47,939 nucleotides of DNA. It comes from Acidaminococcaceae bacterium. GTDB lineage: Bacteria; Bacillota; Negativicutes; Acidaminococcales; Acidaminococcaceae. Numbering within the stretch: the stretch's first letter is position 1; each line of letters begins with the position of its first letter. The translations under genes were made by a program, and so were the position numbers. The notes under the pieces are model-generated. The model was not told where the DNA came from, made no database searches, and saw only the letters and a program-made list of their open reading frames with translations. Of the stretch, positions 12,882-45,714 are shown in pieces. The stretch lies in contig JAFZIG010000095.1 in NCBI GenBank assembly GCA_017554485.1, positions 1 through 47,939 on the forward strand, read 5' to 3'.

Positions 12882-12972
12882 TTCATGGAAGAAGTTTTTT
12901 GGCACAGCTGCATGAAACAGTTATGCTGAAGCCAATACCGAAATGCTGATTTTATAATTTCATATTGTTATG

Positions 12973-13098
12973 ACACGGGGAGCAATTTGCTGAGAGGAAC
13001 CCGGGAACTGCAAAAAAGATTTGCGAAGAGATTTTGTTGCAGCGACCTGCGGTTCGACCCGCAACCTGATTTGGATAATGCCAACGTAGGAATGTCAG
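12973..13098 (+). promoter_or_regulatory. TPP riboswitch (THI element) controlling thiC
   Basis: The thi-box core is present: GGGGAGC followed by CTGAGA (12990-12995), ACCCG, and the 3' half CCTGATTTGGATAATGCCA with ACGTAGGAA (13065-13091). A terminator follows 25 nt downstream, consistent with transcriptional attenuation when thiamine pyrophosphate is bound. The gap 12882-13303 holds this element, its terminator and the thiC leader. Confidence 0.95.
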
Positions 13099-13116
13099 AA
13101 ATAAATTTTAAAAATA

Positions 13117-13156: not shown

Positions 13157-13303
13157 TTTCACGTGGAACTTTACCTGAAAAAATCTCAACGTTACGTTCA
13201 TTGTGCTCAGGTCATGTCAAGTGTTTAACAAACCATATTATTTCATTTCGAAAAAAGCAATTTAGGAAATAACTAAAAAATTAATATGGAAGGAAAATAC
13301 AAA

Positions 13304-14617
13304 ATGCAAAAAGAGTATAACACTCAAATGGAAGCGGCACGGAAAGGGATCGTCACACCGGAGATGGAAATTGTAGCGAAAAAGGAAGAGCGTTCCGTGG
13401 AATTTATCCGGGAACGGGTGGCGGAAGGAACTGTCGTCATTCCCGCCAATCCGAAACATAAAAGCCTTGACGCCAACGGCATCGGCAGCATGCTGAAAAC
13501 GAAGATCAATGTGAATCTGGGCGTCAGCCGCGACTGCAAGGATTACGATATTGAAATGCAAAAAGTCATGAGCGCCGTGAACATGGGAGCCGAGGCCATC
13601 ATGGACCTGTCCAGTCACGGCAACACGCAGCCCTTCCGGCAGAAACTGTGCCGGGAGTGTCCCGCCATGATCGGCACCGTGCCGGTGTACGATGCGGTGA
13701 TCCATTACCAGCGGGACCTGAACACATTAACGGCAAAAGATTTTGTGGAAGTGGTGCGCCTCCATGCGGAAGACGGGGTGGACTTTGTGACCCTCCACTG
13801 CGGCATCACCCGGAAGACCATCGAGCAGATCCGGGCAGGCAAACGCAAAATGAATCTGGTGAGCCGGGGTGGCAGCCTGATTTTTGCCTGGATGAGCATG
13901 ACCGGGGAGGAAAATCCCTTCTATGAATATTATGATGAAATTTTGGAAATCTGCCGGGAACATGACGTGACCATCAGTCTGGGGGACGCCTGCCGTCCGG
14001 GCTGCCTGGCGGACGCCACCGACCAGTGTCAGATCGAAGAGCTGGTACGACTTGGCGAACTGACCCAGCGTGCCTGGGCAAAAGACGTGCAGGTGATGGT
14101 GGAAGGGCCGGGGCACGTGCCCCTGGACCAGATTGCGGCCAACATGAAAGTGCAGCAGACGATCTGCAAGGGCGCGCCATTTTATGTGCTGGGACCTCTG
14201 GTGACGGACATTGCTCCGGGCTACGACCACATTACGGCGGCTATCGGCGGCGCGGTGGCTGCTATGTCCGGTGCGGCGTTTTTGTGTTACGTCACTCCGG
14301 CGGAACACCTGGCGCTGCCTAACGTGGAAGACGTGAAACAGGGCATCATCGCCAGCAAGATCGCGGCCCACGCGGCGGATATCGCCAAAGGCATTCCCCA
14401 CGCCCGGGAACAGGACGACCGCATGGCGGAAGCCCGGCGCAAGCTGGACTGGGAGGCACAGTGGAAAGAAGCCATCGATCCGGAAACCGCCAAAGCGGTC
14501 CGGGCCAGCCGCAAACCGGAGGACGACCACAGCGACACCTGCAGCATGTGCGGCAAATTCTGCGCCGTCCGCAGCATCAACAAGGCGTTGGCCGGGGAAT
14601 TAATTGATATTTTGTAA
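13304..14617 (+). CDS. thiC: Phosphomethylpyrimidine synthase ThiC
   Basis: Radical-SAM enzyme that converts aminoimidazole ribotide to HMP-phosphate for the thiamine pyrimidine. The 437-aa short form, common in anaerobes, contains [42 protein letters not shown] and the C-terminal cluster motif C-S-M-C-G-K-F-C (C-x2-C-x4-C). ATG 13304 is preferred over ATG 13286 because GGAAGGA (13288-13294) sits 9 nt before it. Transcription is governed by the upstream TPP riboswitch. No other thi gene is in the window. Confidence 0.97.
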
Positions 14618-19441: not shown

Positions 19442-19517
19442 GGGGATGTAGCTCAGCTGGGAGAGCGTACGGTTCGCATCCGTAAGGTCGAGAGTTCGAA
19501 CCTCTTCATCTCCACCA
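19442..19517 (+). tRNA. tRNA-Ala (anticodon CGC)
   Basis: A full cloverleaf folds: acceptor GGGGATG/CATCTCC with a G3-U70 wobble (the alanine identity element), D-stem GCTC/GAGC, anticodon stem TACGG/CCGTA with loop TTCGCAT (anticodon CGC), and T-stem GAGAG/CTCTT with loop TTCGAAC. CCA is encoded. A plausible promoter is TTGCTT (19394-19399), 17 bp, TAATAT (19417-19422). Confidence 0.93.
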
Positions 19518-23570: not shown

Positions 23571-23646
23571 TGGGATGTAGTTCAGCTGGGAGAGCGTACG
23601 GTTCGCATCCGTAAGGTCGAGAGTTAGAACCTCTTCATCTCCACCA
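23571..23646 (+). pseudogene. Degenerate full-length copy of tRNA-Ala(CGC)
   Basis: 76 nt identical to the tRNA at 19442-19517 except at three sites: G1 to T (breaks the first acceptor pair), C11 to T (a G-U wobble in the D-stem) and C56 to A in the T-loop (loses the G19-C56 tertiary contact). Anticodon, variable loop and CCA are unchanged. These changes predict a non-functional tRNA. As a 76-bp direct repeat 4.1 kb from the intact gene, it marks the far boundary of the autotransporter segment. Confidence 0.8.
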
Positions 23647-25545: not shown

Positions 25546-25731
25546 ATTGATTCCAGAAATGGAAAGCAATTGACCATAGAGAGTGCGCGAGAGACAAGCT
25601 CTTTGACCGCACAGCAACCTGGCCGGCAGGCTAAGGTGCTAAAGCTTGCATGATGGGATATTGAGTAATCGGCCCATCATAACGATGGGCTTTTGTGTTT
25701 TCAGCAGCCCGTCATTTTGATGGGCTTTTTC
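25546..25731 (+). promoter_or_regulatory. SAM-clan riboswitch 1 with tandem terminators
   Basis: The aptamer carries the SAM-I/SAM-IV core: P2 GTGCG/CGCAC around P3 GAG...CTC, then AGCAACC, a P4 hairpin and AAGGTGC. The stretch 25573-25601 is identical to 32539-32567 in riboswitch 2, whereas P4 covaries (GGCC/GGCT here, ACCGGG/CCCGGT there). The platform is explicit: ATGATGGG (25650-25657) can pair with CCCATCAT (25673-25680). This excludes the terminator GCCCATC/GATGGGC (25672-25690, T run). A second terminator, AGCCCGTCA/TGATGGGCT (25706-25726), follows. The layout predicts OFF when ligand binds. The controlled gene is the HTH gene at 25768. Confidence 0.75.
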
Positions 25732-25767: not shown

Positions 25768-26103
25768 ATGGAAGAGACCTTCACACAAATGTTGATCCGT
25801 TTTATGGAAGAGCGGGCAATCACCAGGCCCGAACTGTATATGGACGCCTGCATGGACCGCAAACTGGTTTCCAAAATTCTGAAGCATAAGGATTATCAGC
25901 CGAAAAAATACACAGCGGTGCGTCTTGCGCTGGGGTTGCGGCTTTCGCTGGACGAAACGAAAGCATTGCTGGAAGCCGCCGGGTTCGCATTGTCCCGCAG
26001 CATTCGAAAAGACTGTGTGATTTCCGATTGCATCGTGCAAAACAAGAAGGAAGTATGGCAAGTGAACTGTATGTTGAAAGCCCGGGGACTGGGAGGAATA
26101 TAG
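25768..26103 (+). CDS. XRE-like helix-turn-helix protein under a SAM-clan riboswitch
   Basis: 111 aa. An XRE-type fold is likely: LYMDACMDRKLVSKILKHKD (about 27-46) is the helix-turn-helix, followed by AVRLALGLRLSLDETKALLE and AAGFALSRS, a C-terminal pattern common in Firmicute regulators. The C-terminus differs from the usual family ending. ATG 25768 is chosen because AAAGGAGA lies 9 nt upstream. It directly follows the riboswitch terminators and heads a run of small genes to 27972. No methionine-metabolism gene is near. Confidence 0.65.
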   Translation: MEETFTQMLIRFMEERAITRPELYMDACMDRKLVSKILKHKDYQPKKYTAVRLALGLRLSLDETKALLEAAGFALSRSIRKDCVISDCIVQNKKEVWQVNCMLKARGLGGI

Positions 26104-26145: not shown

Positions 26146-26844
26146 ATGACCACTATGTTTAGACAGAAGTACAAATGTGCCGTATGCGGTGCGGAACAGG
26201 AGTTTTACGGTATTGCCAGCACGAACTCGTTCGGTTCTCCCGATTTGGACCTGCGCCCGCCGGAAATGCAACGAAGTACCATGGAGCAGTAGATTCAGCA
26301 ATGCCCGAAATGCGGATATGTTTCCGGGTCTATAGATGATGACGCAGGTAAAGTTACAAAAAAGTGGCTGAAATCAAAGGAATATACTCAGAATGACGGC
26401 ATTGAATTCCAATCTTGGTTGGCGGATCAGTTCTATAAATTCTATAAAATCAGCCTTTTAAATGATAATTGTGAGGAAGCCTTTTATTCTTTGCTGCATA
26501 CTGCTTGGGCGTGTGACGACAGTGAAGACACAAAGAACGCGGCGCACTGCAGAAGCTTGGCGATTCCTTTGCTCAACAAATTGATAGAAGAGATTGTTGC
26601 AGGCAAGTATGAACCCGAGGATGATTGCGATGAGAATGTTGAAGTTAAAAAAGATAATTTATTACTGATGAAAACGGATCTTTTGCGCCGATCGGGACAG
26701 TTTGAAACATTGCTGACAGAGTATGCTTCCCAAAGTTTTAAAAATGATATCATGAATAAAGTGCTTGTCTTTCAACTGGCCAAAGCTGCAGAGAAAGATG
26801 ATGCCTGCTATACGGTAGAAGATGCTGTTGATTGGAATAAGTAA
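26146..26844 (+). pseudogene. Zinc-ribbon (DUF2225-like) gene interrupted by one amber codon
   Basis: The frame from ATG 26146 (behind AGGAGGAAAA) encodes KYKCAVCGAEQEFYGIASTN and meets TAG at 26290 (codon 49). The same frame then continues with I-Q-Q-C-P-K-C-G-Y-V-S-G and about 170 more residues to TAA 26842. Two zinc Cys pairs, CAVC and CPKC, straddle the stop, as expected of one protein. A TGG-to-TAG change (Trp in E-Q-W-I-Q-Q) would explain it. The rest is not decayed, so the mutation is recent, a sequencing error, or amber read-through; internal restart at ATG 26419 is also possible. Confidence 0.65.
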
Positions 26845-32315: not shown

Positions 32316-32460
32316 AAACAAATTTTTATAAATAAAAATATAAAACGAAAAATTATTTTAAAAATATAAATAAAAATTTAATATAAAAACCAAATTACAA
32401 AAATTAGAACCATTCTCTAAACCTGCGTTTGTTGCAAGTTTTGGCGACTTGTGTTATAAT
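32316..32460 (+). promoter_or_regulatory. AT-rich tract and promoter of the Hxs operon
   Basis: About 95 bp (32316-32410) are almost pure A/T and could act as an UP-element-like or H-NS-type silencing tract. They are followed by TTGCAA (32432-32437), 17 bp, TATAAT (32455-32460). The rest of the gap 32103-32511 shows no gene. A GTAACG...CGTTAC hairpin (32467-32496) begins the transcript. Confidence 0.65.
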
Positions 32461-32511
32461 ATAAATGTAACGAGGGTTGTGGCAATCTACGTTACGCTTA
32501 CATACTTTAAT

Positions 32512-32682
32512 ATTGTTTCCAGCAACGGAAACCAATTTACCATAGAGAGTGCGCGAGAGACAAGCTCAGTGACCGCACAGCAACCTGACCGGGCGCCCGG
32601 TTAAGGTGCTAATGCTTGTATGATGGGATATTGGATAATTATGCTTTTCAAGCCCATCAGACAGATGGGTTTTTATTTTTTG
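32512..32682 (+). promoter_or_regulatory. SAM-clan riboswitch 2 controlling the Hxs operon
   Basis: Near-identical to riboswitch 1: an upstream hairpin ATTG-TTTCC/GGAAA-CCAAT, the invariant 29-nt block at 32539-32567, P2 GTGCG/CGCAC, AGCAACC, a P4 with ACCGGG/CCCGGT, and AAGGTGC. The antiterminator strand ATGATGGG (32620-32627) faces CCCATCA (32653-32659). The competing terminator CCCATC (32653-32658)/GATGGG (32664-32669) is followed by a long T-rich run. Ligand binding should stabilise the aptamer and allow termination 17 nt before the ribosome-binding site of the first gene. Confidence 0.78.
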
Positions 32683-32716
32683 TGTCTAATAATTAATTAT
32701 GCTGGAGGGAAATCAT

Positions 32717-33625
32717 ATGAGTTATTATAATACAGATCCGCAGTATGTAAGACAAGAAAAGCAAGACTTTTACAATTGGTTGAAGACCGAACAAAAATTG
32801 AGCATATATGACTCCAGGCGTTATATGTGTGCTATAAAAGGCGTGGAAGATTTTGCATCTACAAGAAATTATCATTCAAAGAAACTGTTTTCATTAAACA
32901 GGGACGAAGTTTTTGAAACGGTTAGCGAGTTATTATTAGATGATGTTTATCGTAATGATTATGTAGTTAGATGTCGTATCTACCCTGTAAAACCTACAGA
33001 TGCCGTCCATAAATTGGTTATGTATGCGGCAGCGAAACTTTCTTCACATAAAAAGCAAAGGGAAAAACGTGAATTAGCACCTGTATGGAATCAGAATAAC
33101 ATACTGTATGTACATAAAGGTTTGTTATCTTGTCAAAAGAAAGGACATCATCTCATTACCGCAACAGCTGTAATGCTTGGTCTAAAGAATAAAGATGTTA
33201 GAATGACCGTCAGTTATTGCAAAGATTGCAACCGCTTCTTTATCAGCGAAGTTTCGTATCAGTACTATCGTAAAAAATATGGAGCGTTAATAGGAAACAT
33301 TCAGTTAGAACATAGTAGAGTCGCTTATAACGGAGAATTCCTGGCAGAGGAGTCGCCGCTTCATTTATGCGGTTATAATGTTAATCAACAAGACAACTAC
33401 TCCCGTGAAGAACGAAGATTTATTATTTCCAAGATCATAGACAGAGGGATTATGAGTAAGTATGAAGTCATTAACTATTTGGAATATTTTATTAGTCATA
33501 ATGGACAGCAGACAAAAAATTGGTTGGCTCTTGCAAAGTGGAAGGAAGATTTGCAATTTACAAGAAGATACCAAAGGCAATATGATCCCGTCTATGGTAT
33601 AACTGCTATTCGTGCCATTAGCTAA
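32717..33625 (+). CDS. Uncharacterised first gene of the riboswitch-controlled Hxs operon
   Basis: 302 aa, basic and cytoplasmic. ATG 32717 has GGAGGG 7 nt upstream and is preferred over ATG 32699. The N-terminal FYNWLKTEQKLSIYDSRRYM resembles the core-binding helices of phage integrases. A middle C-K-D-C (about 175-180) may bind metal. The C-terminal part (LCGYNVNQQDNYSREERRFI...IMSKYEVINYLEYFI) is a domain I recall from Firmicute proteins of unknown function. It is not one of the known Hxs components. It may be a regulator or may simply share the promoter. AT-rich like the whole cluster. Confidence 0.6.
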   Translation: MSYYNTDPQYVRQEKQDFYNWLKTEQKLSIYDSRRYMCAIKGVEDFASTRNYHSKKLFSLNRDEVFETVSELLLDDVYRNDYVVRCRIYPVKPTDAVHKLVMYAAAKLSSHKKQREKRELAPVWNQNNILYVHKGLLSCQKKGHHLITATAVMLGLKNKDVRMTVSYCKDCNRFFISEVSYQYYRKKYGALIGNIQLEHSRVAYNGEFLAEESPLHLCGYNVNQQDNYSREERRFIISKIIDRGIMSKYEVINYLEYFISHNGQQTKNWLALAKWKEDLQFTRRYQRQYDPVYGITAIRAIS

Positions 33626-33685
33626 AATCAAGAGATGCGGATTTTCTACTGAAAATTTAGGGTATATTATTGTGAAGGTTTTATT

Positions 33686-34405
33686 ATGGATAAAACAGTA
33701 AGTTTATTAATTCCCATGTTAATAACTCCTTCTTTGTGTTTTGCACGAAGAGGGGACTGGTTAGATACAGGCTTAAGGGCCTTTCCTGATTGGGTATTTT
33801 ATGCATGTTTTTTTGTTGCAATGGCCTTTTATTTTTATATTAACAGCGATAAGGACAATTACGATGGTGTATTCAGCTTCATAGCTTACTTATTCGGTGC
33901 TATTTTTACTGGTTTTTTTGGTGGTGCTATAATTTGCCTTGTGTTAGTCATTCTTTGGTATCTATTAGCTTTTTCATTTGTGATAGGTGTTATTGCTTTA
34001 TGTTTTGCAGGATATTGTCTTTTTATGTGGATACCTATGTTACCTTTTGCTTTAAGAGACGAAGCTAATAAAACAAATGACAGTAGAAAAAAGAGTTTTT
34101 ACAATATTGCGTCCATAGTAGTGGCAGTAGCAATTATTGCCTTCATAATCAATAGTTGCAGTCATGGTTCAACCCCAAAAAAAGCGGAGAGAAGCTTATT
34201 TGTTACAACAAAACCTGGTGTAAAATTCACCTATTACGTTGATGATAAAACATATTATTATAGTTTAAATGAAAATGAAAAGTTTGTTTTCTTATCTTAT
34301 AGCAAGCCAACAAAGAGTTATTATGTAAAATTGGTTTCAAATGGACGCAAAGGTTGGATAAGTAAGTATGCTTCTATTAAAGAAATAGGTACTGTTTATG
34401 AATAA
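33686..34405 (+). CDS. Polytopic membrane protein with extracytoplasmic SH3-like domain
   Basis: 239 aa. An N-terminal hydrophobic segment resembling a signal peptide (1-21), then about four further membrane helices (about 30-50, 60-85, 85-125, 150-168). A soluble C-terminal domain (about 175-239) with TKPGVKFTYYVDDKTYYYSL and KLVSNGRKGWISKYASIKEI has the G-W-I/V ending of bacterial SH3 domains, which bind peptidoglycan or peptides. It lies between the 302-aa gene and hxsD, so a role in export, sensing or anchoring of the Hxs product is possible (inference). Confidence 0.6.
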   Translation: MDKTVSLLIPMLITPSLCFARRGDWLDTGLRAFPDWVFYACFFVAMAFYFYINSDKDNYDGVFSFIAYLFGAIFTGFFGGAIICLVLVILWYLLAFSFVIGVIALCFAGYCLFMWIPMLPFALRDEANKTNDSRKKSFYNIASIVVAVAIIAFIINSCSHGSTPKKAERSLFVTTKPGVKFTYYVDDKTYYYSLNENEKFVFLSYSKPTKSYYVKLVSNGRKGWISKYASIKEIGTVYE

Positions 34406-34476
34406 CAGTATTGTAGATGGATAATGTTATATAGATTGTAATGCGGTAATAGTGCTTTTATATGGAGGTAGAAACT

Positions 34477-34806
34477 ATGAGTGTTTTCTCTCTAGAAAAA
34501 CTAGAAGGTGATGTGTTTAAGTTAGTTTTAAGCAAAAAAATTTACGATAAAATGGCGGTTCTAAATGCATCGTATAATCAATCTGATATTGCTTTTTTCA
34601 AAATCGACAGTATAGACGAGAAAAATGTTGCTGTTTTTATAAAATTTAAGAATACTGTACAAGATAATGAAGCACAAGTTTTTGCAGATAATTTTTTAAA
34701 TGATATTATTGATTATCAAATTAGATTAGATTTGGATGTTAGAACTAATCATATTAAACAAGTTATTTTTGATAAAGCGTTTTCCGCTTTAAAGGTATCA
34801 AAATGA
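34477..34806 (+). CDS. hxsD: His-Xaa-Ser system protein HxsD
   Basis: 109 aa. Small HxsD-like protein with FKLVLSKKIYDKMAVLNASY near the start and FADNFLNDIIDYQIRLDLDV towards the end, as in the family of about 100 residues found beside HxsB and HxsC. Its role in the system is unproven; a peptide-carrier or accessory role is plausible. ATG 34477 has GGAGGT 7 nt upstream and is preferred to ATG 34462. Its TGA overlaps the hxsB ATG (ATGA at 34803), indicating translational coupling. Confidence 0.8.
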   Translation: MSVFSLEKLEGDVFKLVLSKKIYDKMAVLNASYNQSDIAFFKIDSIDEKNVAVFIKFKNTVQDNEAQVFADNFLNDIIDYQIRLDLDVRTNHIKQVIFDKAFSALKVSK

Positions 34807-36260
34807 AACTGCTTCCATTTGATTTTGAAAGACTTGATTTAGACAATGTACTTCTGACAAATATTGCTGGTGAAGCGATTCTGCTGACATCTAAAGAATT
34901 TGAAATTCTTTGCAATGAAGATTATGATTGGCTGCCGGAATTGTCAGTAAATGAACTTGCTGCTAAACATTTTATTGCAAATGATGACAGCCTTGATTTG
35001 AGTATTAATTTGCTTGCAAACAAACTGAGGAGTAGAAAAGATTATCTCTCCGGATTCACGTCTCTTCATATGGTTGTGCTTACTTTACGTTGTAATTGCA
35101 TGTGTAGTTACTGTCATGCATCTTCTAAAGGGGGAATTAGCGATCATGCTTATGACATGGATGAATTTACGGCAAGAAATACAGTAAACATGATTTTTAA
35201 ATCACCGGCTCCGGTAATCAAAATAGAGTTTCAGGGCGGAGAGCCAACATTAAATTTTGATATTTTAAAGGTGATTGTTTTATATGCGGAAGAATTAAAT
35301 ACAACTGCTTGCAAAGAACTTTCTTTTGTTATTTGTACCAATTTACTTTCTTTATCAGATGAGCAACTTGATTTTTTGCATAAACACAAAGTAGATATTT
35401 CGACTTCATGTGATGGAACTAAAAGTATGCATGATTATTGTAGAAAATCTTTAGTATCCGATAGCGCATATGAATCTTTCATTAACAACCTGGAAAAATG
35501 TAGAAATATTTACGGAAGAGATAATGGGCCATCTGCTCTTTTAACAGTTACACGGAACAATCTAGGTAGACTTCGTGAAATCATTGATCATTATCGCTTT
35601 TTGGGCTTTAATAATATGTTTATTAGGGCCCTTAATCCATACGGATACGCATTAGACAATAAAAACAATTTAGATTATTCCGTTGATGAATTTGTGAAAG
35701 CTTATAAAGACGCACTAGCTTATATAATTGACCTGAATATTAAAGGCATTTTTTTCGTGGAATCATATGCTGCACTTTTATTGCAAAGAATCCTAACGCC
35801 TTTTTCTACTGGGTTTGTTGATCTGCAATCTCCAAGTGGTGCGGGGATTTTAGGGTGCATCTATAATTTTAATGGTGAAGTTTATCCTGCAGATGAAGGC
35901 CGCATGTTAGCCGCTAGAGGTGATAAAACGTTCCTTATGGGCAATGTTAACAACAACAGTTATGAAGATATTTTTCATGGTAAATTGATTCAAAAACTGG
36001 TTAAAAATAGTTGCGTAGAGTGCATGCCCGGTTGCAGTTATTGTGCTTATAAGAATTATTGCGGTTCTGATCCAATCAGATATTATGTAGAATGTAACGA
36101 TATAGTCGGTAAAAGATATTCTAGTGGCTTCTGCAAAAAGAATAAAGCTATAATTAAAGAACTTTTGCATTACCTAATTAAAAAGGATTCTGCAACTATG
36201 AAGGTTTTTTGGTCTTGGATTAACAGGAAACCGTTGGAGGTATGCGATGATAACAAGTAA
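34803..36260 (+). CDS. hxsB: His-Xaa-Ser system radical SAM maturase HxsB
   Basis: 485 aa. The radical-SAM cluster motif is C97-N-C-M-C101-S-Y-C104 (C-x3-C-x2-C), followed by the G-G-E-P SAM contact in EFQGGEPTLNFDILK. A SPASM-like C-terminal region (about 400-450) with C-M-P-G-C-S-Y-C-A-Y-K-N-Y-C and later C residues should bind auxiliary Fe-S clusters. The N-terminal 90 residues may be the peptide-binding part. HxsB and HxsC are thought to modify the His-Xaa-Ser peptide of HxsA by a SAM-derived radical; the product is unknown to me. It overlaps hxsD by 4 nt and hxsC by 14 nt. Confidence 0.9.
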   Translation: MKLLPFDFERLDLDNVLLTNIAGEAILLTSKEFEILCNEDYDWLPELSVNELAAKHFIANDDSLDLSINLLANKLRSRKDYLSGFTSLHMVVLTLRCNCMCSYCHASSKGGISDHAYDMDEFTARNTVNMIFKSPAPVIKIEFQGGEPTLNFDILKVIVLYAEELNTTACKELSFVICTNLLSLSDEQLDFLHKHKVDISTSCDGTKSMHDYCRKSLVSDSAYESFINNLEKCRNIYGRDNGPSALLTVTRNNLGRLREIIDHYRFLGFNNMFIRALNPYGYALDNKNNLDYSVDEFVKAYKDALAYIIDLNIKGIFFVESYAALLLQRILTPFSTGFVDLQSPSGAGILGCIYNFNGEVYPADEGRMLAARGDKTFLMGNVNNNSYEDIFHGKLIQKLVKNSCVECMPGCSYCAYKNYCGSDPIRYYVECNDIVGKRYSSGFCKKNKAIIKELLHYLIKKDSATMKVFWSWINRKPLEVCDDNK

Positions 36261-37365
36261 AGGTGTTTCGCATGGCTTTGTTAATTCTAAGATTTTACGT
36301 ATTGAGAAAAATAGCGGTTTAAACTTTTTTTCCCGTGACGGCATAATAATATCTGAGGGAGATGATAACAGTTATCTTGCAAAATACGTATTATCAACCT
36401 CAAAGTCCATTAAATCTTATCAAGCCGGAATTAGTAGTTTAGATAAATCTTTTGTTAAATCGCTGTGTGTTGGAGATATTATTTCAATAGGTGAAGATGG
36501 CCGTGTAAATCTATTGTGGAAATGCGGGCAAGACGATAATTTATTGTTTGTCACTGATTTTTGTAATTCGAAATGCATAATGTGCCCACAAACAAAAATT
36601 GAAAAGCCTCAGAATTATTACAAGGAAGCAACGAGAATAATTGAACTTGCTAAAGATAAACCAAAGTATTTGTGTATTAGTGGTGGCGAACCAACGTTTT
36701 TGAAAGAAGAATATATAAAAATTGTTTCTTTAATCCAAAAAAAATACCCGCACGTAAGTTTACAAGTTTTAACGAACGGGAAGAACTTCAGTGATTTTCA
36801 GTTTTCGAAACAATGCGTGCTAAACTCGCCAGTCGACACTTTGTATGCAATCCCGATTCATAGCGGGAATTCAGCATTACATGACAAAATTGTAAGAACA
36901 AAGAACAGTTTTGTCCTCACAATACAGGGGATTATAAATTTATATAAACTTAAACAAAATATTGAAATCCGCATAGTTATTACTAAACAGAATTATAAAG
37001 ATTTACCAAATATCGCTCATTTTATATATTGGAACATGCCATTCGTTTTCCACGTTGCTTTCATGGGAATGGAAACACACGGGTCGGCACATGATAACAT
37101 TGAAGATATTTGGATTGAGCCTAATGAATATATTGCTTACTTAGAAGAATCAGTATCATTTTTGAATAATCGAATGTTAAACGTGTCAGTCTATAACTTA
37201 CCGCATTGCATATTATCTGAATCGTTAAGGAAATTTGCAAAAGATAGTATTTCCGCTTGGAAAAAAGTCTTTTTAGAGCCCTGCCGGCAATGTTCTATGG
37301 TGGAAGTTTGCTCTGGCGTTTTCGCAACATCTTCTCGCAATCCTCAAGGTATTCACCGCATATAA
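36247..37365 (+). CDS. hxsC: His-Xaa-Ser system radical SAM maturase HxsC
   Basis: 372 aa. Radical-SAM motif C106-N-S-K-C110-I-M-C113, then ISGGEPTFLKEEYIKIV (SAM contact G-G-E-P) and a partial barrel. The C-terminal C-R-Q-C-S-M-V-E-V-C-S-G-V-F is a short auxiliary-cluster segment. The N-terminal 100 residues (KGVSHGFVNSKILRIEKNSG) form a family-specific domain. TTGGAGG precedes ATG 36247, which lies inside hxsB. It ends the operon and converges with hxsA through a shared terminator. Confidence 0.9.
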   Translation: MITSKGVSHGFVNSKILRIEKNSGLNFFSRDGIIISEGDDNSYLAKYVLSTSKSIKSYQAGISSLDKSFVKSLCVGDIISIGEDGRVNLLWKCGQDDNLLFVTDFCNSKCIMCPQTKIEKPQNYYKEATRIIELAKDKPKYLCISGGEPTFLKEEYIKIVSLIQKKYPHVSLQVLTNGKNFSDFQFSKQCVLNSPVDTLYAIPIHSGNSALHDKIVRTKNSFVLTIQGIINLYKLKQNIEIRIVITKQNYKDLPNIAHFIYWNMPFVFHVAFMGMETHGSAHDNIEDIWIEPNEYIAYLEESVSFLNNRMLNVSVYNLPHCILSESLRKFAKDSISAWKKVFLEPCRQCSMVEVCSGVFATSSRNPQGIHRI

Positions 37366-37391
37366 AAAAGCCTCCCTTTTTGCGGAGGCTT
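37364..37391. terminator. Shared terminator between hxsC and hxsA
   Basis: AAGCCTCC (37368-37375), CTTTTTGC, GGAGGCTT (37384-37391). The A run at 37364-37369 becomes a U run for hxsA on the - strand, and the stem also ends hxsC. Confidence 0.8.
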
Positions 37392-37407: not shown

Positions 37408-37689
37408 TTAATAACTGCTACTATAATGTGAATAATGTGAACGATGTGATGAATGTGAAGTATGTGAATAATGAGACGAGTGAGAATAGTGAACTAAATC
37501 AACATTTTTATTACTCGTAACATTACTACCGGTAATAAAAGATTTATTAAATTGAAAATCCTGGCTATGTTGAAGAATTACAGGCGTGTTTTCATTAATA
37601 CTTTTTATTTCTTCAGCATACAGGCTCGTAGGGGTTATTATCCCAACGATTGATAAAACTGAAATAAATAATTTTTTAACAATGCTCAT
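37408..37689 (-). CDS. hxsA: HxsA: secreted His-Xaa-Ser repeat precursor peptide
   Basis: 93 aa. Signal peptide (SIVKKLFISVLSIVGIITPT then S-L-Y-A; cleavage near residue 24), a 40-residue spacer, and a C-terminal tail of eight consecutive H-x-S triplets (x = Y, S, Y, T, S, R, Y, Y) ending S-S-S-Y. This is the expected substrate of HxsB and HxsC. The repeats are written as a 9-bp rhythm in the DNA. ATG 37689 is chosen because AAAGGAGT lies 7 nt upstream; an earlier ATG at 37707 lacks one. It has its own promoter on the opposite strand, outside riboswitch control. Confidence 0.9.
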   Translation of the reverse strand: MSIVKKLFISVLSIVGIITPTSLYAEEIKSINENTPVILQHSQDFQFNKSFITGSNVTSNKNVDLVHYSHSSHYSHTSHSSHRSHYSHYSSSY

Positions 37690-37721
37690 GAAAGTAACTC
37701 CTTTCATAAATTTGCAGAATT

Positions 37722-38419: not shown

Positions 38420-41400
38420 TTACAGTACCAACTTATTCGTGCACTGGATCATGCTGGCGGGAATTGGCTTTTCTAATCGCCAAATGATATTCATGGGACG
38501 GGAGCCTTCGTTTTGCACAAATTCAGCTAATCCAAGAAACATAAACGGAGCAGCCTTTTTAGCTTCATTTTCACCATATTCGCGAACAAATAAAAGTACT
38601 TTGCTTCCCTGCTTTTTATGATTGATATATCGTTGGCCAGTGGGTGATGCTTCGGAAGTGGTACTCTGACTTTGCCAATGGAACAGGTTTTCGTTAATGG
38701 AATAGTCATTGTACATAGTAGAAGGGGAATAATCTTTTTCGCTTTTAATCAGCGTATTGATTAACACGTCGATCTTTTTATCCGGCAACCATTTTACGCC
38801 CTGGCGGATATTGCTGGGATTTAAGTAATCCAACGCAGCAAATAACTGGTCGCGTGTATAATGGCAATGCAAATCTAACGGACAGTCAAACCCTACGTCT
38901 ACGGAATCGTCCACAAAGGTAATGTGTTTTAAATTATATTCCAATACGCTGATCATTTCTTCCCACACTGTATTATATTGGGAAAGCTCCTGCAATTTGT
39001 GAATGGCCGTCTGCAATTTCCTGTCCCGTTCCGAAAGGGTTTCAGAAGATGTATTTGGAACATCTTCTGCTTCGATAGTCTGGTAAAATGTAAAATAAAA
39101 CATCCAAATCATCCGTTTTTCCAGTTCGCTAAACCACGTAACTTTCCAGTTTGCTATGGACGGGAGTTTATCTAACAGGAACTGCAACCAGCGGCGGCTG
39201 TCAATGGTAGCGATACGTGGGAGGGCTTTGGCTAAATAATCCTTCTCTGGTATCTCATAGGGCGGAAGTAAATTCGCTGCAACGCAAAGAGAAGAAAAAG
39301 TTGTTTTCGAATACAGATACAGTAACGAAATATGATAATAATCGGCAAAATTTCCTACAGTTATTGGATCTTTGGTTTCCTGTGCATAATCGCGCAGTTT
39401 TTCTATTAAGGCAGTTCTTGTGATTAAAGAATCTTTGATATTTTTTAAAATTACGCTTTGCGCTTGTTTTTCCAGTTGAATGTAACAGCCAGCAGGAAGA
39501 GATATAAAACCCTGTTCGATTTCGCGGTACAGACCTTTGCGTGTGCGATGCAACAGAGCTGTGAATTTTTCATCAAAACGATATTTTTTATGGGACTGAC
39601 CAATAAAATCCAAAACAGTCAGGCATTCTTTGTCTTCAGCAAGACGCAAGCCACGTCCAAGCTGCTGCAAGAAAATAGTTAACGATTCTGTGGGACGTAA
39701 AAATAAAATGGTATCAATTTCGGGAATGTCAACACCTTCGTTATACAAGTCTACAACAAAAATAAATTTGATTTCGCCTGAGATCAGTTTGCTGCGGGCA
39801 GTATTGCGTTCTTCATCAGAGCTGCCGCCTGTCAGGCAAATGGAAGGAATACCTTCTTCATTAAAAACCTTGTTCATAAATATGGCATGTTCGATGGAAA
39901 CGCAAAAGCCTACACCGTGCACAAGATTTAAATCGGCCGTGTATTTCCGTACCGCCTGAACGACGAGGGTAGCCCTTTTTCTGGCAGCAAATGCGTTGAG
40001 AACATACACATTATTTAATTCTTTTATGTCATAACCACCACGGCTCCATGTGAGACCAGAAAGATCGGTTCCGTCGCTGACACCGAAATAATGAAACGGA
40101 CAAAGCAGTTTCCGCTCAATGGCTTCTGGCAGGCGAATCTCTGAAGTGATCCTGTTATTAAAATACTCTGCCACATTTTTTCCGTCCATGCGTTCCGGCG
40201 TTGCCGTTAAGCCAAGCCAGATTTTGGGTTTATAGTAATTTAAAAGCTTTTGATAAGAAGAAGCCGCCGCATGATGGAATTCATCAATGATGATGTAATC
40301 ATAAAAATCTGGAGACGTTTTTGAAGTCCAATCCTGCGAATTAAAGGTTTGGATTGACATGAACAGGTGCGATACCTGCGAGGTTGGTCTATGTGAACCT
40401 ACAAATAAATCTCCAAAATTTTCATCTTCCAAAATTCCGCGGAAACAGGAAAGGCTCTGGGATAAAATCTCTTCCCGGTGTGCAATGAATAACAGTTTAT
40501 TCGCTTGACCGGGATTCTGTTTGCAGAAACGTTTGTAGTCAAAAGCGGCAATGACAGTTTTGCCGGTGCCCGTTGCAGCAACAATTAAATTTTTATAATT
40601 AGCACGCAATGTCCGTTCCGCTTCAATTTCATCCAATATTTCCTGTTGGTAAGGGTAGGGCGTAATTTTAAAATGGTAGGCGCCTGGATTTTCTGCAACT
40701 AAATACTGCTTGCCAGGTTTATTCTGGAAGCGTTCTCTGTATAATGCGGTTTTTAAGCGTTCTTTCTGTGCGGCATTATAGATATCAAAGTCAGGAGAAT
40801 GCCAATAGGCATCAAAAGTGTGCAACACTTTGTTCATGGTGTTGCTCAAGTCTTTTTCCGTTATTTTGACATTCCATTCCAAACCGCTGGACATGGCTGG
40901 ATTGGACATGTTGGAAGAACCGATATAAGCTGTAGTAAAACCGGTGGCCCTGTGAAAAATGTAGGCTTTGGCATGTAACCTTGTCCGCTTGGTATCATAA
41001 GAGATTTTGATTTCCACATTCGGCAACGCGTTTAGAACTTCAATGGCTTTATAATCCGTAGCGCCTAAATACGATGTGGTAATAATACGAAGTTGTCCAC
41101 CACGATGCGTAAATTCCTTCAGCGAATCCAATAACAAACTGAGACCACTCCATTTAACAAACGAAACTAGCATGTCAATACGATCGCAGGTGCTGATCTC
41201 TGCTTTCAATTCGCTATACATTTGAGGTTCGTGTTTGGCTCCGGTAAACAGAGATGTTTCTGTTAACGAAGTTTGGGGGCGTAGAATTTTTGCATTTGCG
41301 TTTACGACACGTATTGTGTTTTGCGAATCCAAAAGGGTCAGTAATTCTTCACCTTTTTTGTCTACCAGTAATTCTGCTAACTCTTCATTTTTAGTTTCGT

Positions 41401-41665
41401 ACTGAATTAGTTTTATGATTTTATTGGCAAGAACAATCTGGCGCTGAATACCTGTTGTATTGCTTTTCGTTTCTTCGGTATCTTTTGCAGATTCTAACCC
41501 CTGTGTTACTATATCTTTTAGATAGCTGGACAAAACAGAGGATGCCTCGGTCTGATCAATTGATTCAATTTCTTTAAAACGACTGTCAACATGTTCCAGT
41601 TGTTTTGCATAATATTCATTGATGACCTGTTCGTAAAATCCAGGCGATAGTTTTTTGTCGTCCAT
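38420..41665 (-). CDS. PLD-nuclease / superfamily 2 helicase / DUF3427 fusion
   Basis: 1081 aa. An N-terminal helical region is followed by a phospholipase D-like domain (about 140-290) with LHAKAYIFHR and a downstream G-S-S-N-M-S. The SF2 helicase core (about 330-750) has ATGTGKTVIA (Walker A), DEFHH (motif II), LTATPER (motif III) and LQQLGRGLRLAEDKECL (motif VI). The C-terminus (KKAAPFMFLGLAEFVQNEGS) is the DUF3427 ending. Such proteins are common in defence islands and probably cut and translocate foreign DNA. ATG 41665 with GAGGT is preferred to ATG 41698. It is the third gene of an operon. Confidence 0.88.
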   Translation of the reverse strand: MDDKKLSPGFYEQVINEYYAKQLEHVDSRFKEIESIDQTEASSVLSSYLKDIVTQGLESAKDTEETKSNTTGIQRQIVLANKIIKLIQYETKNEELAELLVDKKGEELLTLLDSQNTIRVVNANAKILRPQTSLTETSLFTGAKHEPQMYSELKAEISTCDRIDMLVSFVKWSGLSLLLDSLKEFTHRGGQLRIITTSYLGATDYKAIEVLNALPNVEIKISYDTKRTRLHAKAYIFHRATGFTTAYIGSSNMSNPAMSSGLEWNVKITEKDLSNTMNKVLHTFDAYWHSPDFDIYNAAQKERLKTALYRERFQNKPGKQYLVAENPGAYHFKITPYPYQQEILDEIEAERTLRANYKNLIVAATGTGKTVIAAFDYKRFCKQNPGQANKLLFIAHREEILSQSLSCFRGILEDENFGDLFVGSHRPTSQVSHLFMSIQTFNSQDWTSKTSPDFYDYIIIDEFHHAAASSYQKLLNYYKPKIWLGLTATPERMDGKNVAEYFNNRITSEIRLPEAIERKLLCPFHYFGVSDGTDLSGLTWSRGGYDIKELNNVYVLNAFAARKRATLVVQAVRKYTADLNLVHGVGFCVSIEHAIFMNKVFNEEGIPSICLTGGSSDEERNTARSKLISGEIKFIFVVDLYNEGVDIPEIDTILFLRPTESLTIFLQQLGRGLRLAEDKECLTVLDFIGQSHKKYRFDEKFTALLHRTRKGLYREIEQGFISLPAGCYIQLEKQAQSVILKNIKDSLITRTALIEKLRDYAQETKDPITVGNFADYYHISLLYLYSKTTFSSLCVAANLLPPYEIPEKDYLAKALPRIATIDSRRWLQFLLDKLPSIANWKVTWFSELEKRMIWMFYFTFYQTIEAEDVPNTSSETLSERDRKLQTAIHKLQELSQYNTVWEEMISVLEYNLKHITFVDDSVDVGFDCPLDLHCHYTRDQLFAALDYLNPSNIRQGVKWLPDKKIDVLINTLIKSEKDYSPSTMYNDYSINENLFHWQSQSTTSEASPTGQRYINHKKQGSKVLLFVREYGENEAKKAAPFMFLGLAEFVQNEGSRPMNIIWRLEKPIPASMIQCTNKLVL

Positions 41666-41723
41666 GATAGTACCTCGTTGGAAAAGGGACATAAACATTT
41701 GACTGTCAATGTTGAGGTCTTAA

Positions 41724-42968
41724 TTAAAATTCAAATGGATCTTCTTCTATAACTTTCAAGTTGTTCAACGCTTTTAGTTTTAGCATGCCGTTATCAAAAG
41801 AAATAGTTTGTGTACAACCATTACTAAAATAATTTTGACAACCAAAAAATGGTTTTGAATCCCGATTTCTCATCCTTAATATCATTGGAACATTACAATT
41901 AGGGCATAAAAGTGGGGAATAATTTTCCCAGAAATTATTTTTTTGATTTATTCCCATAACGAATGCATTAATATTATTTGCGTTATTGTTAAGCAGTAAA
42001 CTTCCGATTTCTGATATTGTTGCCCCAGAGGCAACAATATCGTCAATAATAATTACGTTTTTTCCAATGAATGGATTAGAATTTAATTCTGGATTAAGAC
42101 AAAAAACACCTTGTAAGCTTTTTGCTCTTTCAACTGCATTTCTTGATTTATTATTACCATAGTTTAATGGACAAATAATATAATCGGATCCATCAATAAA
42201 ACCAAAGAATCTACTTAAATTTTCAACTAACCTCTTAAAACGATTGATTTTTCCTGGTTGCGGTGGCACAGATACAATAATGGTATTATTACTGGGGTTC
42301 ATCCAACATGTTTTAATCATTTTTTTATAGAGTGGATAAAACAAGGGGTTCTCTTTACCGTCAGTTTTATTGGAAATAATTTTGTTGCTCAGAAAGTGGT
42401 ACTGTGACTGACAGCAGTTTTTCTTGTAGTAACGACCTCCAGCAAATACATTGATATAAGCATTATCGGATTTTAAGACTTTTTTTAATAACATAGATTT
42501 TGGACAAGGATGATTTAGAAAAAAGTTTTCTGCAAAATAGGTTCCGAGTATATTTTGTGTAACCTCAATCAAATCTCTTGAGGAACGACAAAGAAAGTCC
42601 GGCGCGTGCTCAAAATCACCTTGGCCCGAAACAAGGATATTTCTTATATTGAGACCTGTTAAGTAATCTAGGGAATCGATACTTTTTGTGACCACAGCTG
42701 CTTGATCGGATTTAATATTGAATGAATTTAATATTTCAACCATAAGATTATTGTTATCAATGAATGCAAAAATATTACTAAAGCCAAAGAAATGACATAC
42801 CTCTCCATATAAGTGTAAGTTTTGAATTTTAGGATTTGTTACATCTACTGTAAAAAAAACCAACTTAACGGAGTTTGCCAAAGTTTTCCATATTTCTTCA
42901 CAATAATCCTCGGAAAAAGTATCAATATCAATAAATAATAACTGAAAAGGTTCAACTTTCAGAAACAT
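41724..42968 (-). CDS. HAD-like / phosphoribosyltransferase / zinc-ribbon protein
   Basis: About 414 aa. The N-terminal L-L-F-I-D-I-D-T and IRNILVSGQGDFEHAP suggest a HAD-like fold (weak). A type I phosphoribosyltransferase motif lies at about residue 310 (NVIIIDDIVASGATISEIGS, the PRPP loop), as in ComF. The C-terminus has a topoisomerase-type zinc ribbon (C-P-N-C-N-V-P-M...F-F-G-C-x8-C). ATG 42968 behind AGAGGT is preferred to TTG 42974. It overlaps the end of the DprA-like gene, indicating coupling. A nucleotide-based immune role is inferred from the neighbours. Confidence 0.68.
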   Translation of the reverse strand: MFLKVEPFQLLFIDIDTFSEDYCEEIWKTLANSVKLVFFTVDVTNPKIQNLHLYGEVCHFFGFSNIFAFIDNNNLMVEILNSFNIKSDQAAVVTKSIDSLDYLTGLNIRNILVSGQGDFEHAPDFLCRSSRDLIEVTQNILGTYFAENFFLNHPCPKSMLLKKVLKSDNAYINVFAGGRYYKKNCCQSQYHFLSNKIISNKTDGKENPLFYPLYKKMIKTCWMNPSNNTIIVSVPPQPGKINRFKRLVENLSRFFGFIDGSDYIICPLNYGNNKSRNAVERAKSLQGVFCLNPELNSNPFIGKNVIIIDDIVASGATISEIGSLLLNNNANNINAFVMGINQKNNFWENYSPLLCPNCNVPMILRMRNRDSKPFFGCQNYFSNGCTQTISFDNGMLKLKALNNLKVIEEDPFEF

Positions 42969-44157
42969 ATTCAACCTCTGTTAAATCATCTTGAAAAAGT
43001 GCTAGTTCTGTAACTGCATTAGTATTTTTAAAAATAGGTATCTGTTGTAGTTGTTCTAACAGATCTTTGATTGTTCTGAACTTATGTGCTCCTCTCTGTG
43101 TAATATATTTTTTCGGCCATTTAATTTTATTATTATCAAGAGCGCTTTGAGGAATAAACACAAAACGATTTTGTTTAAGAGCATAGTCAGCCTGTTTTAA
43201 GGCACCGCTAGTTTCACCTGCTTCAACAACTACAGTGGCCAAAGAAATACCGCTCATAACAGCATTTCGTACAGGGAAAAACCATCTTTGAACTTTTTCC
43301 GATGGAGCAAATTGCGATAGTAAAAGCCCTTTTTCAGAAATTTTTTCTTGAAGATATTTGTTTTCAGCAGGATAGGCTGTTTCCAGTGATGTGCCAATTA
43401 CAGCAATAGTTCTACCATTATTTTCTTTTAATGCTGCCATGTGTGCTTGTGTATCAATTCCTCGCGCTAATCCAGAAGCAACGACAATTTGGTAACGACC
43501 TAATAAACTAGAAAGCCTATACGCTTTATCACAACCTTCTGGCGAGGCTTTCCTACTTCCAACAACAGAAACTATTTTCTGTTTCAATAATTCAATATCT
43601 CCCCTTGCAAAAAGAAAAGGCGGTGCCTGGTCAGTAGTTGCTAAATTTTCAGGAAAATCATCGTTTCCTTTTTTTAATATTACATCAGATTGTCGAAGTC
43701 GCAAAAACCCTTTTTCTACAGTTTGATAAGCTTCTTCTAATAATTGAATGTTAATATTTAAACGCTTACTCACTATTTCAGAAAAATTAAGTAATGGTTG
43801 TGAGACATCAAATTCTTCTTTAAGCTCAGTAAAAATAGGGAATGCTGTTTTTGCAGAACCATTATAAAAAGACTGGATTGTATAATAATTAACTGCTTCT
43901 TGTTTTATAGCTGAATCAATTTTCATAGGAACAGAATAATCACTTTTTGATATATTAATGCCAATAGAATTGATAGAAACACGACGTGCTTCTATGTCTG
44001 GCTTATAAAAAAGCATTCCGGCAGAACCTTTCTTTACTGGTGTAATTTGCCCGTCGTGAACTAATTGATTTAGCCGTTGTACAGTAATGCCCAAATAGTC
44101 AGCGGCTTCTTTAGAAAATAAAATATTTTCCATTAGCTTCTCAATATCCTTTTTCAT
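42952..44157 (-). CDS. DprA/Smf-like Rossmann protein with N-terminal helix-turn-helix
   Basis: 401 aa. The N-terminus (ILFSKEAADYLGITVQRLNQ) is an excisionase/MerR-like helix-turn-helix. The C-terminal half has the DprA core: VVGSRKASPEGCDKA, VVASGLARGIDTQAHMAALK, GRTIAVIGTSLETAYPAENK, then the F-F-P-V-R-N loop and ATVVVEAGETSGALKQADYA. DprA loads RecA on incoming DNA, but this copy sits with a phosphoribosyltransferase and a helicase and looks like a defence-island version. AGGAGGA is placed ideally before ATG 44157. First gene of the three-gene operon. Confidence 0.85.
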   Translation of the reverse strand: MKKDIEKLMENILFSKEAADYLGITVQRLNQLVHDGQITPVKKGSAGMLFYKPDIEARRVSINSIGINISKSDYSVPMKIDSAIKQEAVNYYTIQSFYNGSAKTAFPIFTELKEEFDVSQPLLNFSEIVSKRLNINIQLLEEAYQTVEKGFLRLRQSDVILKKGNDDFPENLATTDQAPPFLFARGDIELLKQKIVSVVGSRKASPEGCDKAYRLSSLLGRYQIVVASGLARGIDTQAHMAALKENNGRTIAVIGTSLETAYPAENKYLQEKISEKGLLLSQFAPSEKVQRWFFPVRNAVMSGISLATVVVEAGETSGALKQADYALKQNRFVFIPQSALDNNKIKWPKKYITQRGAHKFRTIKDLLEQLQQIPIFKNTNAVTELALFQDDLTEVEYVSES

Positions 44158-44409
44158 TGTATCCTCCTGGTAGGCAAACTGTATTTTTATGATTTTATAA
44201 ACAGAATTTCACTTATATGATAACATAAGTATTTAAGATTATCAATAGTTGAACGGAAATCTTTTATCAAAACATATTTACAGTAATTAGTATTATTATT
44301 TTTGATAACTATATGATGCTATTACATATTGATTTTCTATTCTTATGAAGAATTTGATTTCAGAACGGAGAGGCAAAAACTTTGTTAGTAAATGAAAAAA
44401 CAAAACACT

Positions 44410-44438
44410 TTGAAGTAAACACAACAGAATGATATAAT
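44410..44438 (+). promoter_or_regulatory. Promoter of the HNH endonuclease gene
   Basis: TTGAAG (44410-44415), 17 bp, TATAAT (44433-44438). The gap 44158-44487 also must hold the divergent promoter of the DprA operon, which I could not fix. Confidence 0.6.
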
Positions 44439-44487
44439 AAACAAAAAGAATATTGATTCATCATAATATATAGGAGTAGCATCCATC

Positions 44488-45714
44488 ATGCACCTCCACC
44501 TTCAATCAAATTCCATCTACACAAACCAACTGAATACAGACAACTTCGCCCGCATGCTGAAGGATCCGTCCCAATGCTACAAGTTTTACTGGCTGGAAGC
44601 GATCCTCACGTTGATGGAAACCACAGAGGGCGATTTAAGTTTCGACGCCATCATCGATGAGATGATCTGTGCGGCGTGGTATTCTGTTGTCAATTATCAT
44701 TTGCACCTGGGGCCCACCATCCGGGGCAAGTCAGAGAATTTTCTGGAGCATGCCATCCGCATCCTGGAAACGGATCCGGTTTTGCCGAAGCCTTGCACCA
44801 AACAGGATCTGCTGCAGGCGATCCAGAGAAACAATAAAGAGTTACGCAACGATAAGAACGGGCTGGCGATTAATGTGCCATACAGGCTGCTGTCATCGTT
44901 TTTGACTGAAATTGCCGGCACCAGCCGTCTGTGGTATCAGCGCCGGCAGATGATAGGGTATCTGTTGCAAGCCAATGAGAAAAGTCCGCTGCCTTATATT
45001 ATCCTCGATGGCCCGGGCCTGGAGAAGAAGGTTCGCATCAATCCCCTTTGGCGGCAGCTGATTTTTGATAATTATCCTGTAATTCGAAGCTGGATCCAGT
45101 TGAAGAAGGTGCGTTTTCTGCAGGACCGGAATCCCGGCGTGCCCGGCATCATATATAAATTGGAAGAGAATGAGGCAGGCGCCCGGAAGCTGAACAATGC
45201 CCGCCAGTTGTGGAAGACGGTGGCGACGGTCAGCGACAGGCCCATCAGGGATATCTATACGGGCAGGCTGCTGGCAAATCATCAGTTCGATCTGGATCAT
45301 TTCATCCCCTGGTCGTATATCACCAACGATGAGCTGTGGAACCTGACGCCTATGGACGGGCGGCTGAATTCCAGCAAGAGCAACAAGCTGCCGGAGTGGG
45401 ACCTGTATTTTGCGTCCCTGGCGGAGAATCAGTATTTTTTGTATGAGATGATTTTTTCCCGGGAGCTGGTGCGCAGGCAGTTTGAGAAGTGCCGCCGGGA
45501 TAACCTGAATGCCATCTGGGCTACGGAGACGCTGTACGTGGAGGGCAACAGTGAAGGGCAGTTCAAGAATGTTCTGGAGCATAACCTGAAGCCGTTGTAT
45601 GAGTCCGCGAAGCTGCAGGGGTATGAGTTGTGGCGGTTTGGCGGTAATGTGAGTTGTGATGTAACGTTTGATGAAGGTTCGGAAGGGTTTTATCTGGCTG
45701 CGGAAACGAAATGA
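44488..45714 (+). CDS. HNH endonuclease-domain protein
   Basis: 408 aa. The nuclease motif D-L-D-H-F-I-P-W-S-Y with NDELWNLTPMDGRLNSSKSN and K-L-P-E-W (about 268-308) is a His-Me-finger HNH core. The helical N-terminal region begins MHLHLQSNSIYTNQLNTDNF. The C-terminal half is probably a DNA-recognition domain. It is isolated, with no methyltransferase or McrB-like partner, so it could be a modification-dependent restriction enzyme or a stand-alone defence nuclease. Its composition is richer in GC than the preceding operon, indicating a different origin. ATG 44488 has a weak AGGAGTAG upstream. Confidence 0.8.
   Translation: MHLHLQSNSIYTNQLNTDNFARMLKDPSQCYKFYWLEAILTLMETTEGDLSFDAIIDEMICAAWYSVVNYHLHLGPTIRGKSENFLEHAIRILETDPVLPKPCTKQDLLQAIQRNNKELRNDKNGLAINVPYRLLSSFLTEIAGTSRLWYQRRQMIGYLLQANEKSPLPYIILDGPGLEKKVRINPLWRQLIFDNYPVIRSWIQLKKVRFLQDRNPGVPGIIYKLEENEAGARKLNNARQLWKTVATVSDRPIRDIYTGRLLANHQFDLDHFIPWSYITNDELWNLTPMDGRLNSSKSNKLPEWDLYFASLAENQYFLYEMIFSRELVRRQFEKCRRDNLNAIWATETLYVEGNSEGQFKNVLEHNLKPLYESAKLQGYELWRFGGNVSCDVTFDEGSEGFYLAAETK

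Follow-up and report, generated by a model that had tools for sequence, protein, structure and literature searches.

A P4-less SAM-I riboswitch variant found before phage and accessory genes heads a His-Xaa-Ser radical SAM operon in an Acidaminococcaceae bacterium

SAM riboswitches have been described for methionine and sulfur genes, and a leader of this kind at the head of a His-Xaa-Ser (Hxs) operon with two radical SAM maturases raises the question of what the RNA is, which genes it governs, and whether its ligand has anything to do with the chemistry of the encoded enzymes. The sequence studied here is the forward strand of the 47,939-nt Acidaminococcaceae bacterium contig JAFZIG010000095.1 (assembly GCA_017554485.1), referred to in its full length as the window. 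In our best explanation, which we hold with a probability of about three in four, the leader attenuates transcription as a SAM-I riboswitch of a variant form without P4, a dispersed copy of an element that makes accessory, phage and defence cargo SAM-repressed and that was acquired by the Hxs operon as a cassette. This explanation builds on the observed sequence, structure, covariation and distribution of the element, from which we infer SAM binding, control of termination and co-transcription of the genes behind it. Counting against it are the absence of the canonical P4, the replacement of C8 by A, promoter-like sites that would allow an internal promoter before hxsD, and the fact that the union of leader and Hxs genes was seen only once. 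Within the searchable literature we found no SAM riboswitch joined to a RiPP-like system, in line with the first-pass annotation of this locus, and nothing relevant on P4-less SAM-I or phage SAM riboswitches, which is weak evidence given the partial coverage.

In a cmscan search of the whole window, the SAM (S-box) family RF00162 matched positions 32537-32629 of the + strand with 49.2 bits (E-value 2.1e-8; 1.6e-10 with the scan restricted to the leader), above its gathering score of 44.4 bits, so that the SAM-clan aptamer postulated at the head of the operon withstood the covariance-model search proposed for it. Membership in two related classes was rejected: RF01725 (SAM-I/IV) reached 33.9 bits, short of the 41.1 bits of its cut-off, and for RF00634 (SAM-IV), where a score over 38 bits was demanded, there was no match, nor does the aptamer show PK-2 with P5. 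The aptamer as delimited by us (32533-32634, +) has the core of SAM-I, with the P2 kink-turn signature (GA...UGA), P3 with GCAACC and AAGGUGC, and PK-1, in which CAAG of the P2b loop (32561-32564, +) pairs with CUUG (32615-32618) and whose pairs are changed on both sides in relatives. The distance from GGUGC to the P1 strand (AGAU) is about 16 nt in the window copies, whereas canonical S-boxes of the family have 27-35 nt there, room enough for P4; the metK of the window's genome, for example, has a canonical S-box (70.5 bits). None of the 43 distinct copies in the alignment has P4, a count that includes viral copies whose selection partly demanded the absence of this helix, and the P3 loop is variable among copies. 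R1, a model built from the P4-less variant, scores the window copy with 111.4 bits, a value that is not independent because the window sequence was included in R1. Upstream, a consensus scan predicts a promoter-like site (TTGCAA-17-TATAAT with an extended -10; 32432-32460, +), whose -35 element is the point at which the first-pass annotation let the feature begin, and a small hairpin (32515-32532, +; -6.6 kcal/mol), which recurs at several other copies of the genus, abuts P1. The window contains a second P4-less SAM-I element (25571-25674, +; RF00162 49.7 bits), followed by tandem terminators and by a gene for a 111-aa HTH-like protein (25768-26103, +), an arrangement that is repeated in the genomes G044, G046, G047 and G054.

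Among 18 distinct copies, eight pairs are changed on both sides in a structure that includes PK-1, and this structure surpassed 500 of 500 shuffles both in paired cells and in covariation score. In the 43 distinct copies, which include those of another family and of phages, such changes on both sides were found for 13 pairs, located in P1, P2a, P2b, P3 and PK-1. The residues A6, U7, G11, C44-A45-A46-C47, U57-G58, A87 and U88, which we take to be those touching SAM in SAM-I crystal structures, are kept in all 43 copies, with the exception of a one-base register shift at A6, U7 and G11 in two rows of the alignment. In 40 of the 43, an A replaces C8 of the canonical C8-G86 pair. This exchange, the loss of P4 and the unusual regulon could be taken to mean that the variant senses a different ligand, such as SAH, methionine or a modified SAM, and a SAM-related product had indeed been considered in the first-pass annotation. 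With all SAM-touching residues of the SAM-I structures unchanged, a changed ligand is not suggested, and we regard this alternative as quite improbable.

The 3' strand of P1 (UGAUGGG, 32621-32627, +) could serve alternatively as the 5' strand of an antiterminator. Its alternative partner, CCCAUCA (32653-32659), is the 5' arm of an intrinsic terminator of nine pairs followed by a T-rich tail (32650-32672, +), and the antiterminator and terminator, both of which had been noticed at the outset, are mutually exclusive. Constrained folding, without ligand or tertiary contacts, gave near-isoenergetic structures of -44.8 (ON) and -42.4 kcal/mol (OFF), which differ by 2.4 kcal/mol. The 57 parsed copies all have a nearly complete antiterminator (7/8 or 8/8 pairs), and a terminator-like hairpin lies downstream of every one of them (57/57). 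For 28 distinct versions, the complementarity of the antiterminator (214 of 224 observed, shuffle mean 200.5) exceeded that of 2000 out of 2000 shuffles; its level is biased upward because the 3' arm was picked as the best complement, but what the shuffle measures is how well the two arms fit each other. At pair 7 the copies have C-G, U-A or U-G, and at pair 8 A-U, U-A or C-G. The score, the conserved ligand contacts and the covariation support an aptamer of the SAM-I type coupled to an attenuator of the OFF type, and we take the leader to be, very probably, an OFF switch that senses SAM and belongs to the P4-less SAM-I variant. At high SAM, P1 (and PK-1) would be stabilised and the 3' strand of P1 thereby occupied, which would leave the CCCAUC arm to pair within the terminator, so that transcription would halt ahead of the first gene. 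At low SAM, UGAUGGG would pair with CCCAUCA, the terminator could not form, and the polymerase would read through the first two genes into hxsD-hxsB-hxsC.

The first gene behind the leader encodes a 308-aa protein with a Cys motif, CKDC (32699-33625, +; likely true start at 32717, Shine-Dalgarno sequence at about 32704), for which no family was found in Pfam, NCBIfam, PHROGs or PADLOC and no relative among viral contigs; its structure model (pLDDT 36.5) was of no use. It is followed by a gene for a 239-aa membrane protein with hydrophobic stretches and no matched family (33686-34405, +), by hxsD (34462-34806, +; TIGR03976 56.4 bits, cut-off 50), and by the genes of the two radical SAM maturases already recognised in the first-pass annotation, hxsB (34803-36260, +; TIGR03978 545 bits, cut-off 370) and hxsC (36247-37365, +; TIGR03977 314 bits, cut-off 267.9). 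All five are read from the same strand, no gap between them exceeds 60 nt, and no terminator of the + strand was found between 32672 and 37365. The HxsA-like substrate (37408-37707, -), with a signal peptide, His-Xaa-Ser repeats and a HYSHSSHYSHTSHSSHRSHYSHYSSSY tail, scores 27.3 bits against the HxsA4 model (cut-off 55); its gene is convergent and has its own intrinsic terminator (37368-37391, -), which places it outside the riboswitch transcript. The proposed operon layout thus held in so far as the aptamer heads it, but the genes next to the aptamer are those for the 308-aa and 239-aa proteins, and the peptide is not part of the transcript.

The main rival to a control of hxsDBC is that the riboswitch governs the first two genes alone, that is, that it serves the 308-aa gene and perhaps also the 239-aa gene, while hxsDBC has its own promoter. 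Promoter-like sites within the 239-aa gene make an internal promoter before hxsD possible, and neither of the two genes was found in the 422 nt that precede hxsD in the closest relative of this locus. In addition, relatives of the 308-aa gene sit, like other accessory cargo, by restriction and helicase genes; in genome G262, distant relatives adjoin a type I restriction-like gene and a helicase. However, none of these relatives is accompanied by the P4-less element, and the short gaps, the lack of a detected terminator and the overlaps of hxsD, hxsB and hxsC suggest a single transcript. We consider a separate hxsDBC promoter a serious possibility, short of an even chance, and riboswitch control of hxsDBC likely. 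The region from 29.5 to 47 kb of the window further contains ORF6N, HicB, an Rpn-type transposase, a PLD-helicase methyl-directed restriction enzyme (mREase_IV, 748 bits), a ShosTA-like pair (ShosA, 230 bits, with a ShosT-like partner) and BRO-N proteins. With these phage-derived and defence-type neighbours, the setting of the Hxs operon resembles that of other copies of the switch.

HxsB exceeded its cut-off in one of 59 genomes of the family Acidaminococcaceae and in ten of 380 genomes of the class Negativicutes, the window's locus included. At none of the nine other Hxs loci in these 380 genomes was a match to a SAM-family RNA or to R1 found. The nearest relative (L034), whose HxsB is 79% identical, has the same hxsD-B-C order and convergent peptide; the P4-less element, like both upstream genes, was not found in the sequence available before its hxsD. 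The survey of Hxs loci suggested in the first-pass annotation therefore returned the leader at the window's locus only, and we rejected the notion of SAM-regulated Hxs operons as a class. This bears directly on the idea, raised there, that the ligand is matched to the radical SAM chemistry, and on the reading that the switch is kept because HxsB and HxsC consume SAM, which would adjust the operon to the SAM supply. Both maturases are radical SAM enzymes encoded behind the switch, and no terminator was detected in between, as such feedback would have it. Yet HxsA lies outside the transcript, the logic would activate enzymes that use up SAM just when it is in short supply, and sibling copies of the leader head genes without evident SAM use. 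As the variant precedes many unrelated genes and is missing at the nine other Hxs loci, the data do not support that the ligand is functionally tied to the chemistry of HxsB and HxsC. Feedback is in our view unlikely, and the placement of the riboswitch before SAM-using, peptide-modifying enzymes is probably a matter of chance.

The distribution of the element in bacterial genomes is consistent with a dispersed regulatory cassette. Applied to the order, R1 set apart 26 copies, spread over nine genomes of the family and scoring 89-120 bits, whereas no other S-box exceeded 57 bits. In the window's genus, seven genomes carry one to six copies each, with two in the window's own genome; sibling copies head unrelated accessory genes or islands, and near-identical copies occur within genomes. 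Seven more single copies were found in another family among the 380 class genomes, and in six of these seven the next gene is N-formylglutamate-amidohydrolase-like (PF05013, 161 bits for the copy tested). Five copies in the window's genus also head such a gene (148 bits), and a target common to both groups would seem to be ancestral. If the enzyme deformylated N-formylmethionine, the target would have a methionine-related sense, which is speculation on our part. Other copies of the genus head long accessory islands that encode repeat proteins of the Sel1 and WG types, an internally deleted MetK, and HTH proteins, and in two cases in the genus a Nif11-type peptide is encoded several kb downstream. 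The internally deleted MetK-like frame, found in several downstream islands, and a deformylase-type target that could salvage methionine both fit a SAM/methionine theme, if weakly, and to that extent speak against a different ligand. Three loci from the phylum-wide search (L149-L151; R1 57-61 bits) were not counted as the variant, since they score 75-89 bits with RF00162. The leader was not found in plasmid records. Being multi-copy and near-identical within genomes, the element might also be a repeat that has decayed, or a selfish one, with no function today; compensatory changes in both aptamer and antiterminator across copies, genomes and phages argue against this, as does its strict linkage to one phage gene described below, and we consider it very improbable. 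The P4-less element would rather be one of the dispersed copies that place accessory, phage- or defence-associated cargo under SAM repression, and the Hxs operon probably gained it as a ready-made regulatory cassette and not for the SAM use of its enzymes.

The core pattern of the P4-less form matched 16 viral contigs, a scan that yields no unbiased rate because it demanded the absence of P4, and several of these viral copies head a gene for a protein of about 100 aa. With this protein as the sole query, 20 viral contigs with about 13 distinct proteins were recovered, and an R1 element lies about 80 nt upstream of the gene in 20 of 20, a linkage that is independent of the RNA because the contigs were gathered by the protein alone. 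About half of the 20 contigs carry a convergent cytosine DNA methyltransferase gene. The same arrangement is present in the annotated genome of Ruminococcus phage NatCom_28274, and one non-viral genome from another family of the phylum contains the element and a homologue of the phage protein. The structure of the protein was modelled confidently (pLDDT 89.6), and neither a significant structural match in PDB or BFVD nor a sequence match in PDB was found; a match to Pfam SH3_15 is below the cut-off. It is tempting to view the P4-less SAM-I sub-class as a mobile, phage-linked cassette that strictly controls a phage protein family beside DNA methyltransferases and has spread within one bacterial genus to defence- and RiPP-like islands, the Hxs operon of the window among them, with the cargo switched on at SAM depletion, an interpretation that we offer tentatively. 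If it were true, SAM depletion, resulting for example from phage DNA methylation or methionine starvation, would induce the cargo.

The P4-less, phage-associated variant and its spread on phages and in the genus deserve most attention. This spread would mean that mobile cargo responds to the methyl-donor level of the host, and since the ligand pocket is kept while P4 is gone, the shortened form represents a natural test of the contribution of P4 to SAM-I. For the Hxs system, the window offers one locus at which limitation of methionine or SAM should induce the maturases.

Among known systems, that of Hxs (TIGR03976/TIGR03977/TIGR03978), attributed to Haft and Basu in PMC9062424, agrees with the window's locus in HxsD, HxsB and HxsC, all above their cut-offs, and in an adjoining secreted peptide with His-Xaa-Ser repeats, whereas the convergent orientation of the peptide gene, the two extra upstream genes and the SAM leader set the window apart. 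SAM-IV lacks P4 and has PK-1 (PMC6890682); the window variant resembles it in the core and in the missing P4 but has neither PK-2 nor P5. In SAM-I/IV, which has P4 and lacks PK-1 (PMC6890682), the core is again alike and the pattern of P4 and PK-1 is the opposite of that in the window variant, which keeps PK-1. With SAM-I (RF00162) the variant shares a score above the cut-off, P1, the P2a/P2b kink-turn signature, PK-1, the SAM pocket of P3 and, as predicted, the antiterminator/terminator OFF logic; it differs from SAM-I in the missing P4, in the A at position 8, and in its targets, which are accessory, phage and defence-type genes instead of methionine genes.

In viral genomes, the shortened SAM-I riboswitch without helix P4 was found upstream of a gene for a phage protein of about 100 aa in all 20 IMG/VR contigs (L153-L172) that had been retrieved by this protein alone. 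The protein family, for which 44045-44515 of PV036439.1 (L144) is a further locus, shows no known fold, and in these contigs a cytosine DNA methyltransferase gene is often convergent with its gene. At locus L091, a P4-less SAM element stands at the head of a MORN-repeat gene (5226-5678, minus strand), which lies in reverse orientation between phage replication and packaging genes, a moron-like placement.

Among bacterial genomes, an N-formylglutamate-amidohydrolase-like gene (PF05013) is a target of the switch common to two families, represented by G044, G046, G047, G052 and G054 and by the single-copy loci L098-L103 of the second family; its product is a possible N-formylmethionine salvage enzyme. 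Islands downstream of P4-less elements repeatedly contain an internally deleted MetK of about 111-118 aa, in which the N-terminal part is fused to the C-terminal tail (islands of G046, G047, G054 and G055; L092, 5544-5900, minus strand). Two islands of genome G044 include a Nif11-type RiPP precursor peptide, encoded 6.2 kb past element G044b (L036) and 3.7 kb past element G044f (L096).

Within the window, a methyl-directed restriction enzyme of the PLD-helicase type, scoring 748 bits as mREase_IV, adjoins a ShosTA-like DprA/phosphoribosyltransferase pair (38420-44157, minus strand). Two nearly identical tRNA-Ala(CGC) genes (19442-19517 and 23571-23646) flank a 1246-aa ORF; in the second the T arm is altered, so that this copy may have decayed. 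In the gene at 26146-26844, a TAG codon interrupts the reading frame some 48 codons in; its G046 counterpart is intact (243 aa). A TPP riboswitch (12966-13109) precedes thiC (13286-14617) in the ordinary arrangement.
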